IMG/VR virus record: IMGVR_UViG_3300020469_000290
Coordinates: 1-22,520 of that record
Origin: a virus
Strand: one strand, 5' to 3'
Length of the DNA: 22,520 nucleotides
Below the pieces are notes generated by a model, which saw only the letters and a list, made by a program, of their open reading frames with translations, was not told the origin of the DNA and did no database searches. Position 1 is the first letter of the stretch. Every line of letters starts with the position of its first letter. The position numbers were made by a program, and so were the translations under genes. Positions 6,627 to 18,657 of the stretch are shown in pieces.

Positions 6627-6990
6627 CCTGATTCTCCATCAGAAAAGCCATGAGCTTCTCTTCATACCAACGGGCCTTTCGTAAGTCTTCAATAGGCTTA
6701 GTCTTATAACGAAACCTCCAGCGATACTTCAAAGAGTTACCACGAAGATAACCTACAAACTCATCAGGTGTAAGCATAGCTTCAATAGCTTCTATGCACT
6801 CTATATGTCCATTATTATAATGCGCTGGGTGATCTACCATAGTGTTTATTAAATTAGAATACGATTTACCCAAACGATTATCAGGTATGTTTTCACCGTA
6901 TACAGGGTGATCATTAGGCCCATCCCAATCTTCTGTATCTTTCCTATTTAAGTTACTCCACTCTTCTGGTGTTGCATCGTCAATACTCAT
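6613..6990 (-). CDS. DUF3310 (SaV-like) family protein, possible nucleotide kinase
   Basis: The C-terminal two-thirds (about residues 51-117) fits DUF3310: it opens with VDHPAHYNNGHIECIEAIEA, continues with LRGNSLKYRWRFRYKTKPIE and ends with DLRKARWYEEKL. The N-terminal 50 residues are acidic and poorly structured-looking. This domain is found in many phage proteins, and I recall it being linked to the T7 gp1.7 nucleotide kinase, but the biochemical role here is unproven. It overlaps the endonuclease I gene by four bases. Placement beside ribonucleotide reductase fits a nucleotide-metabolism task. Confidence 0.85.
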   Translation of the reverse strand: MSIDDATPEEWSNLNRKDTEDWDGPNDHPVYGENIPDNRLGKSYSNLINTMVDHPAHYNNGHIECIEAIEAMLTPDEFVGYLRGNSLKYRWRFRYKTKPIEDLRKARWYEEKLMAFLMENQDVLG

Positions 6991-7508
6991 TCCATCTCCA
7001 AGTTAAGTTTACTATTTCTATTTTTAAAATCTTCAGACTCTTTAGCTTTCACATCAATCCACGCATCAGGGATACTGTCTTCACTAAACCATCTAAAGCC
7101 ATTCTTCCACGCCCACTCAGCGTGAGATCTTTTAGTTCCATCTTTTCTTCGTTTAGCTCCCGGCATAGGGGCCGAAGGATTTGCAAATAAGAATACAAGC
7201 TCAGTGTTTTTAGGTAAGTGTTTTTTAATCCATACATATTTATTGTACTCTGCAAAGTCCCAAAACCTACCCTTAGACTCAAGTAGTATTTTTTTATTTC
7301 CTATTTTACGAACAAAGTCAGGCTCGTATTTATGCTCTATTACATATTCTACATAGTCTACATGATGCTCCCAATCTTTTAATATTGATTCGTGCAGCAC
7401 TGCTTCCCATATAGAATCATACTTATGATTGTTAGGAGCTACAATTTTCTTAGGGCGGGGTACTCTTGCTTTACGCTTACCGCTTCTTACTCTTTTTTTT
7501 GTGGTCAT
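6987..7508 (-). CDS. T7 endonuclease I-type Holliday junction resolvase
   Basis: The protein (173 residues) matches phage endonuclease I, a dimeric PD-(D/E)XK nuclease that cuts branched DNA during recombination and packaging. The catalytic set is visible: E35 (SIWEAVL), D64 (YEPDFV), E77 and K79 (LLESKGR), corresponding to Glu20, Asp55, Glu65 and Lys67 of the T7 enzyme. A basic N-terminal tail of about 25 residues (KKRVRSGKRKARVPRPKK) and a C-terminal extension beyond 130 make it somewhat longer than T7 gp3. It overlaps the upstream gene by four bases. Confidence 0.93.
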   Translation of the reverse strand: MTTKKRVRSGKRKARVPRPKKIVAPNNHKYDSIWEAVLHESILKDWEHHVDYVEYVIEHKYEPDFVRKIGNKKILLESKGRFWDFAEYNKYVWIKKHLPKNTELVFLFANPSAPMPGAKRRKDGTKRSHAEWAWKNGFRWFSEDSIPDAWIDVKAKESEDFKNRNSKLNLEME

Positions 7509-17163: not shown

Positions 17164-17538
17164 TTAGATCATGCCAAGGTCAGCAGCAGTAGCAATTCGT
17201 GGAGCCGAGGAAGTCTTAAAGTTCTTTGAGACTTTGCCTTTGGCAGTGATCGGAGCTTCTTGATTCGGCTTGAGATCCTCAGTTTTAAGTACCTTAAGGT
17301 ACTTAGCAGCAGCCGAGTTCTTCGCAGTAATCTTTTTGACATTGAACAGCTTGTTGATGTCACCAGCCAAAGGCTCACCGTCATGCACTGATTTAATTAC
17401 AGCACCGAATCGGGCCTTGAGTTTATTAAACTCAAATCGCTTCAGATCATTCTCACCGATAAACTTATACGCCAAGGTCGCAGCAACTGCATAGATTGCT
17501 TTGTTGGTAGCGGGACGAGTCATATCAAAATTAGCCAT
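17164..17538 (-). CDS. Hypothetical 124-residue protein, first gene of the leftward unit
   Basis: The protein starts MANFDMTRPATNKAIYAVAA. An Ala/Lys-rich helical first half is followed by a basic, low-complexity C-terminal region (PITAKGKVSKNFKTSSAPR) and a hydrophobic end (ADLGMI). I do not recognise a family. It is the first gene behind the strong leftward promoter at 18202-18230 and its 650-nt leader, and it is followed by a tandem terminator, so it should be abundant and early. By position it could be a host-takeover or DNA-binding factor. Confidence 0.75.
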   Translation of the reverse strand: MANFDMTRPATNKAIYAVAATLAYKFIGENDLKRFEFNKLKARFGAVIKSVHDGEPLAGDINKLFNVKKITAKNSAAAKYLKVLKTEDLKPNQEAPITAKGKVSKNFKTSSAPRIATAADLGMI

Positions 17539-17552
17539 ATTAGTTTCCTAAT
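17539..17552 (-). promoter_or_regulatory. Hairpin enclosing the ribosome site of the first leftward gene
   Basis: Read leftward, ATTAG-GAAA-CTAAT directly abuts the ATG at 17538. The ribosome site AGGA (17549-17546) spans the end of the stem and the GAAA loop, a GNRA tetraloop. It could tune initiation. Confidence 0.5.
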
Positions 17553-17597
17553 CGTATTTTTCGGTGCCAAGCAGCATCGGCTCGGCGGTTTCTAAAC

Positions 17598-17648
17598 CTC
17601 TATATTTTCTTAAGAGGTCGTAAGACCTCCTCTTAAGAAAATATAGAG
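17598..17648 (-). repeat. Two-register hairpin, sibling of the one at 15459-15506
   Basis: A perfect 20-bp stem (17598-17617 with 17629-17648) closes an 11-base loop. Alternatively GAGGTC pairs with GACCTC (17614-17619 with 17624-17629) around GTAA. The core differs from its sibling by matched changes (GAGG with CCTC here, GAAGG with CCTTC there). Confidence 0.75.
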
Positions 17649-17998
17649 TTTATTAAATCTATAAAACCTAAGAGGTTTTATAGATTTAAGAGGTTAAAAG
17701 ACCCTTTGGGTCTTTTAGATTGGGAAGTCTTTAGCTCTTCTTAGGAAGAGCTAGATTGGCTTTGAGGTCGGTGGGCTATTTAGTTTTCAACTTGTTGAAA
17801 ACTATGAAGATCTTCTAAGTAATACATTACTTAGAAGACTCTAAAGCCTTTCAGTTTACTTTGTAAACTAGAAAGGCTTGGGAAGTCTCAGCCCCTTAAA
17901 GTCTCTAGAGACTTTAAAGATCTATTTAGTTTCTAAATAGATTGGGTTCCAGACTATAAAGATTTTAGAGATCTTCTTAGAGTTTCTTAGAGCTTTAG

Positions 17999-18057
17999 AG
18001 GGGTGGGCAGGTGGCCGTGGGGGGTACTGTATATATATACTAAATCATATACATTTT
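17999..18057. other. G-rich block next to an AT-rich block (possible origin element)
   Basis: On the + strand a G-rich stretch at 17999-18025 (runs of four, three and six Gs) is followed directly by an AT-rich stretch at 18026-18057 that includes TATATATATAC. The pair stands out from the surrounding hairpins and lies in the main intergenic control region. An unwinding element or G-quadruplex is possible; no repeated initiator-binding sites prove an origin. Confidence 0.35.
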
Positions 18058-18082
18058 AGGAAGATTTTGGATGTAAACCAGC

Positions 18083-18150
18083 TTAGCCGGGTCTTTAAAG
18101 TCCTACTAACCTCCATATGAGCCAAAAGTAGTTTAGCCGGATCTTCAAAG
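18083..18150. repeat. Two 18-bp direct repeats exactly 50 bp apart
   Basis: TTAGCCGGGTCTTTAAAG (18083-18100) and TTAGCCGGATCTTCAAAG (18133-18150) agree at 16 of 18 positions and start 50 bp apart. They lie in the predicted leader, 45-112 bases after the leftward transcription start. They could be protein-binding sites on DNA or RNA. Confidence 0.75.
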
Positions 18151-18201
18151 ACTTTAAAGAGGCTACCTAGATATAGGTATAGCCCCGGTGGGTCTATGGA
18201 T

Positions 18202-18230
18202 ATTATAGAGTTCAATTTAACATTTGTCAA
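18202..18230 (-). promoter_or_regulatory. Main leftward promoter, perfect sigma-70 consensus
   Basis: Read leftward, TTGACA (18230-18225), 17 bases and TATAAT (18207-18202) match the consensus at every position. The predicted start is near 18195. It should drive the whole leftward unit, beginning with the hairpin-array leader. Confidence 0.9.
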
Positions 18231-18248
18231 GAAAAAACTTGACAAATG
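18221..18248. repeat. 11-bp inverted repeat at the centre of the divergent promoter
   Basis: CATTTGTCAAG (18221-18231) and CTTGACAAATG (18238-18248) are exact reverse complements around six As. Each arm contains one -35 box. The dyad is a natural operator position, since one bound protein dimer would cover both -35 elements. Confidence 0.85.
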
Positions 18249-18267
18249 TGTAAACCACTTCTATAAT
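18239..18267 (+). promoter_or_regulatory. Main rightward promoter, perfect sigma-70 consensus
   Basis: TTGACA (18239-18244), 17 bases and TATAAT (18262-18267) match the consensus at every position. The usual seven-base distance puts the start at about 18274, the A of the terminase small subunit ATG, so the mRNA would be leaderless. Confidence 0.9.
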
Positions 18268-18273
18268 AAAAGA

Positions 18274-18657
18274 ATGAAAAAAGAATTGACAACAAAACAA
18301 CAAACTTTTCTAGATCATTTAGTTGATACAGGAGGTGATCCTAAGCAAGCAGCCGAACTAGCTGGCTACGCTCCTAATACTCATTGGCAAGTAACTAAAG
18401 CTTTAAAGAATGAGATAGTGGACTTAGCATCTAGTATTTTGGCTCAGTCTGCACCTAAAGCTGCTATGAAGCTTGTGCATGTGATGGAGTCTGATCAGCC
18501 TATGCCTCAAGTCAATCAAAGACTTCAGGCCGCACAGACTATTTTAGATAGAGTGGGACTAGGCAAGGCAGACAAATTAGATGTCAGCCATAAAGTTGAA
18601 GGAGGGATTTTTGTGCTACCTGCTAAAGAAGAGGTAGTAATTAATGTTGAAGCGTAG
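18274..18657 (+). CDS. Terminase small subunit-like protein
   Basis: The 127-residue protein has an N-terminal helix-turn-helix at about 5-47 (LTTKQQTFLDHLVDTGGDPK, then QAAELAGYAPNTHWQVTKAL), a helical middle (LAQSAPKAAMKLVHVM...LQAAQTILDRVGLGKAD) and a short C-terminal strand region ending in VINVEA. This is the usual layout of phage terminase small subunits, which recognise packaging sites and feed DNA to the large subunit. The large subunit is encoded two genes downstream. The frame could extend to ATG 18196, but that would place the promoter inside the gene, so ATG 18274 is preferred. It has no upstream ribosome site. Confidence 0.82.
   Translation: MKKELTTKQQTFLDHLVDTGGDPKQAAELAGYAPNTHWQVTKALKNEIVDLASSILAQSAPKAAMKLVHVMESDQPMPQVNQRLQAAQTILDRVGLGKADKLDVSHKVEGGIFVLPAKEEVVINVEA

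Follow-up and report, generated by a model that had tools for sequence, protein, structure and literature searches.

In a marine phage, the untranslated leader that precedes the first leftward gene holds an array of near-perfect hairpins, and this array evolves as DNA: its arms change as mirror images of each other, its loops flip to exact reverse complements, and its pairing is Watson-Crick with no clear preference for G-U. At a probability of roughly 0.6, we favor the reading that the divergent control region of the phage is a hotspot, exposed by transcription or replication, in which DNA copying makes and perfects hairpins. Taken by itself, the covariation among relatives would look like that of a conserved RNA. 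Because copying between hairpin arms also produces covariation, which may thus arise without RNA function, the marks of DNA copying make covariation insufficient as evidence for such a function.

Genomic setting and promoters

The window (the whole stretch of DNA analyzed, 22,520 nt or 22.5 kb) is part of one virus record, IMG/VR IMGVR_UViG_3300020469_000290. The predicted terminase large subunit shares 65-68% identity with those of Pelagibacter phages HTVC115P, HTVC103P, and HTVC104P and 43-49% with those of Puniceispirillum phage HMO-2011, Pelagibacter phage HTVC033P, and Roseobacter CRP phages, identities that place the virus, as judged from this protein, among the HMO-2011-type marine phages (group name from the literature). 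A transcriptome has been published for pelagiphages HTVC022P and HTVC027P, which belong to other phage groups. Genes for a T7-like DNA polymerase, a primase-helicase, a single-stranded DNA-binding protein, and endonuclease I are among those read leftward, terminase subunits come first among those read rightward, and the leader (17539-18195) sits where the two sets diverge (Table 1). Searches for tRNA and tmRNA genes found none in the window. In many relatives, the first gene read leftward starts with a shared xATxKQ-type motif, as judged by eye.

Table 1. Features of the leader and its surroundings, with positions in the window.
Feature	Positions	Strand	Remarks
Untranslated leader	17539-18195	-	gap from leftward promoter to first leftward gene; relatives' leaders ~600-1250 nt
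Leftward sigma-70-type promoter, TTGACA-17-TATAAT	18202-18230	-	heads the leader; consensus 12/12; kept in close relatives
Divergent rightward promoter for TerS, TTGACA-17-TATAAT	18239-18267	+	consensus 12/12; inverted repeat with leftward promoter
Conserved box CTRGTTNACA, here CTGGTTTACA	18072-18081	-	usually 64-66 nt before GGCC core; most of 50 non-redundant relatives
Conserved AT-rich element TGTATATGATTTAGTATATATA	18032-18053	-	~37 nt before GGCC core, family-wide
Conserved core GGCCACCTGCC, family form GGCCWCCTGCC	18006-18016	-	G- or C-run before it; from comparison of relatives
Hairpin 1, 10 bp, loop AAA	17920-17942	-	
Hairpin 2, 11-bp perfect palindrome	17896-17917	-	ortholog loops flip in relatives
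Hairpin 3, includes CTAGTTTACAAAGTAAACT	17847-17875	-	most conserved of the hairpins
Hairpin 4, 13 bp	17811-17838	-	ortholog loops flip in relatives
Hairpin 5, 11 bp	17781-17804	-	
Hairpin 6, 9 bp, loop CTAA	17732-17753	-	3/9 pairs compensated, 100% paired
Hairpin 7, 10 bp, loop AAA	17695-17717	-	loop TTT (inverted) in L028 and L030
Hairpin 8, 17 bp, loop CTT	17653-17689	-	loop AAG (inverted) in L013
Hairpin 9, 20 bp, inner GTCTTACGAC conserved	17598-17648	-	clusters of mirrored arm changes in relatives
First leftward gene, 124 aa	17164-17538	-	no Pfam or PHROG match
Terminase small subunit (TerS)	18274-18657	+	PHROG terminase small subunit matches
T7-type endonuclease I	6987-7508	-	PF05367, E 8e-11

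An earlier note on this DNA had described a leader that runs from a strong promoter to the first early gene, and the sequence supports an untranslated leader in this position well, with a promoter that matches the consensus at every position. A search of the leader for intrinsic terminators (a U-run after a stem, read leftward) found no such site, and a blastn comparison with annotated phages returned one match for the leader, which was irrelevant. The two divergent promoters together form a 31-nt inverted repeat (18201-18268; 77% complementary) centered on an A/T hexamer, and its central 12-bp perfect stem holds both -35 boxes. Only a short spacer, equally short in close relatives, separates the end of the rightward -10 hexamer (18267) from the TerS ATG (18274), and the terminase transcript is therefore probably leaderless.

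A dense hairpin array concentrated in the leader

Nine successive hairpins with stems of 9-20 bp and loops mostly of 2-4 nt lie within 17598-17942, as the earlier note had described, and the linkers between many of them are 0-8 nt. The leftward strand has a predicted folding energy of -228.8 kcal/mol, compared to -143.5 +/- 7.0 kcal/mol for 20 dinucleotide shuffles (z -12.1), and thus folds with far more than the expected stability; shuffled leaders hold ~0.1 such hairpins vs the nine observed. Counted without the inverted repeat of the promoters, perfect stems of 11 bp or more number 1.76 per kb in the leaders of relatives, vs 0.082 per kb in other noncoding DNA and 0.004 per kb in coding DNA of the same loci. 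Because this density is so much higher in leaders than elsewhere, the array is specific to the leader region and goes beyond mere drift of noncoding DNA. Two palindromes lie inside the first leftward gene (17286-17305 and 17417-17435; 10 bp and 9 bp), and the hairpin habit may reach into coding sequence.

Most of the sequences that we compared are metagenome contigs, in which inverted chimeras from assembly or whole-genome amplification might mimic flipped hairpins. We consider such an artefact very unlikely, however, as the stems of most flipped hairpins (9-17 bp) are below the usual assembly k-mers, the same hairpins recur across independent metagenomes, and stems of this kind are almost absent outside the leader.

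Other parts of the initial description fared unevenly. The proposal that the whole 650-nt leader is a hairpin array holds for 17598-17942 but not for the 5' half (17943-18195), which is a separate conserved module with no hairpin array. Boxes said to recur before the stems do not bear scrutiny, as the window leader has just two exact copies of CCCAATCTA, which, among relatives, only the close ones L012 and L016 share. CCCACC is indeed present three times here but is not conserved (0-2 copies in relatives), and the stems, which had been called unrelated in sequence, are only partly so, since several have the words AGTCT/AGACT and CTTTAAAG in common. The locus is not a CRISPR, as identical direct repeats are absent, and the window has no Rfam match at gathering scores; sub-threshold Rfam searches of the L078, L147, L100, and L093 leaders gave nothing credible, only miRNA-like chance matches.

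Tandem, variable stem-loops in a phage genome also recall the published TIGR arrays (PMC12045711), which are likewise built from non-identical units. We give next to no credence to a TIGR stem-loop guide array, or to another CRISPR-like guide locus, as the explanation. A Nop-domain (Tas) protein was absent from the window and from 15 related records in searches that detected the positive controls, the 0-8 nt linkers between many hairpins are too short for two 8-12 nt spacers with box C/D, and no conserved boxes were found. The array thus differs from TIGR loci in having no Tas protein, dual spacers, or box C/D motifs.

Mirrored arm changes and inverted loops

Several lines of evidence bear on how the hairpins change. 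First, when 14 close leaders are aligned, 93.5% of alignment cells pair and 37 of 110 pairs have changed on both sides, a number reached in none of 500 shuffles; the signal is lost when partners are slid. Paired positions are therefore conserved in relatives, which the earlier note had proposed as a mark of a functional fold. Transversions (for example, TA to AT) make up about a third of these both-side changes and cannot go via G-U. Interior G-U and A-C pairs are equally frequent (43:43 in 317 hairpins), in a test whose power is low, as the E. coli rRNA control gave 4:0 for stems of at least 8 bp and 8:6 for stems of at least 6 bp; pair types in orthologs gave 15:11, with the same low power and small rRNA control. 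Second, between the L032 and L035 leaders, which are 93% identical, the terminal hairpin shows five mirrored and no single changes over 29 bp. Third, loops are inverted to their exact reverse complements (AAG/CTT, AAGA/TCTT, AAA/TTT, GAA/TTC) between close relatives; L017 and L019 are 99.4% identical, yet differ by an AAGA/TCTT flip. Exact inversions of 3-6 nt loops number 14 pairwise cases, not all mutually independent, of five distinct kinds among 112 near pairs, whereas independent substitution would be expected to yield 0.035. Permuting loop pairs, a simpler test, was too weak (p = 0.07); this divergence-based expectation between near pairs took its place and is the only decisive test. In published work, template switching between the arms of inverted repeats leaves these two marks, homogenized arms and an inverted spacer (PMC8604942).

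It is possible, though on balance doubtful, that the leader is a structured RNA selected as such. Transcribed leftward from 18195, it might protect the early message, serve as a target of RNase III or of RNA polymerase (antitermination), or act as a stable noncoding RNA or a sponge, and DNA-level copying between arms might still help keep it perfect. The strong promoter upstream and the extreme folding z-score fit a role of this type. In addition, the clade keeps hairpin order and pairing, and arms have diverged less than linkers (0.23 vs 0.33), which makes it likely that the hairpins are under some selection, possibly as RNA. The leftward RNA also folds slightly better relative to shuffles than does the opposite strand (mean z -8.0 vs -7.2; 27 of 36 leaders), a small sense-strand excess that hints at some RNA-level constraint. 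By contrast, pairing shows no clear G-U preference in the low-power test, loops, which are usually what is recognized, flip freely, no Rfam family matches at gathering scores, and the leaders of many relatives and of HTVC103P, HTVC104P, and HTVC115P have no or few perfect hairpins.

A copying model and its precedents

In the copying model that we favor, a nascent strand in replication, or a strand bared by heavy leftward transcription (through an R-loop or negative supercoiling), would fold back on an inverted repeat and be copied from the opposite arm. A single event of this kind could create or lengthen a hairpin, repair its arms, or flip its loop, and the array would be continually written and perfected where the most strongly transcribed unit begins. 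We infer that transcription or replication exposes the region, with transcription of the leader predicted from its promoter; the array starts ~250 nt beyond a consensus promoter, which fits transcription-linked copying. RNA made from the array would necessarily be very structured and might persist because it is useful or harmless, and a function for it is possible. Cruciform resolution is an alternative route to the loop flips. Enzymes of the T7-type endonuclease I family cut four-way junctions, and the phage has an endonuclease I gene.

Template switching is known to create and maintain perfect hairpins (PMC8794818), and those hairpins resemble the array in that stems are perfect, changes to both arms cluster, whole loops are occasionally inverted, and G-U intermediates are not needed. 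They lie in rRNA and microRNA genes, however, where loop inversions are very rare, whereas the array is dense, occupies one phage region, and has inverted its loops repeatedly. Spacers between short perfect arms also invert among close relatives in yeast (PMC8604942) and at the palindrome-associated small inversions of chloroplast DNA (e.g., PMC2903610), but these cases are scattered single loci, whereas the phage case is an array beside an early promoter. Quasi-palindrome mutation in highly transcribed yeast DNA likewise makes inverted-repeat arms more identical, and these arm-perfecting mutations were observed only when transcription was high, with RNA-DNA hybrids involved (PMC3820800); that work used yeast reporters, whereas transcription of the phage leader is predicted from its promoter only.

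Covariation is usually taken as proof of functional RNA. Here, it is accompanied by loop inversions and by no clear G-U preference, in a clear natural case where DNA copying alone could yield it, which urges caution in calling noncoding RNAs from covariation in hairpin-rich phage DNA. The leaders also offer an abundant and fast-evolving natural system in which hairpin birth, perfection, and loss can be traced on a tree.

Turnover of hairpins beside a constant module

IMG/VR relatives were collected for the first leftward gene (11) and for TerS (66 loci), and dozens of IMG/VR contigs have homologous leaders, whose lengths in Table 1 run, where sequence suffices, from TerS to the first plausible leftward gene, an ORF of 70 aa or more. 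The hairpin half varies by lineage: the clade of the window retains about nine hairpins in the same order, the longest perfect stems reach 31 bp in L147, 26 bp in L100, and 20 bp in L093, and many relatives, together with the three HTVC isolates named above, have none or few. On the TerS tree, hairpin richness must have changed 10 or more times. A 28-bp perfect hairpin lies beyond the leader, outside the array, in L095 (~1400 nt downstream of the core) and in L153.

The promoter-proximal half is a conserved module of ~75 bp of DNA, in which TGTATATG..AGTATATATA is followed ~37 nt later by GGCCWCCTGCC, with a G- or C-run just before this core, and its spacing is fixed across relatives, unlike the hairpin half. 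Relatives' leaders show an array that appears dispensable and an upstream module that is constant. A DNA pattern for the core and AT-rich element matched 99 viral stretches. For the CTRGTTNACA box, a simple motif search with CTRGTTKACA gave no enrichment over the whole window, and support for this box is positional. The array thus adjoins a conserved, uncharacterized control module in a dominant marine phage group.

Such a module invites comparison with a replication start, at which an R-loop formed by the leader transcript at the AT-rich element and G/C-run would prime T7-like replication, with hairpins on the exposed strand serving primase or junction recognition. The fixed spacing of these elements beside a strong promoter is consistent with this idea, as are the T7-like polymerase, primase-helicase, single-stranded DNA-binding protein, and endonuclease I genes. 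We nevertheless judge it unlikely: GC skew in the window and in HTVC115P tracks the direction of transcription and genes and gives no independent origin signal, and the G-run is found in either orientation. To our knowledge, no origin has been mapped in the HMO-2011-type group. T4 provides a precedent, as its origins are described as using R-loops (PMC3016281).

Copying might also occur at a dedicated hairpin-writing site, where replication would begin or stall on an R-loop at the conserved module, fold-back copying would make new perfect palindromes, and these palindromes would serve the phage either as structured RNA in the leader or, at the replication start, as DNA hairpins. This version seems improbable to us; if true, the phage would have a site that generates structured RNA naturally, by mutation.

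The G/C-run before the GGCC core (18017-18032) swaps strand among relatives, reading CCCCCC here in the leftward sense and GGGGGAGGGG in L013, and looks as though the tract itself had inverted.
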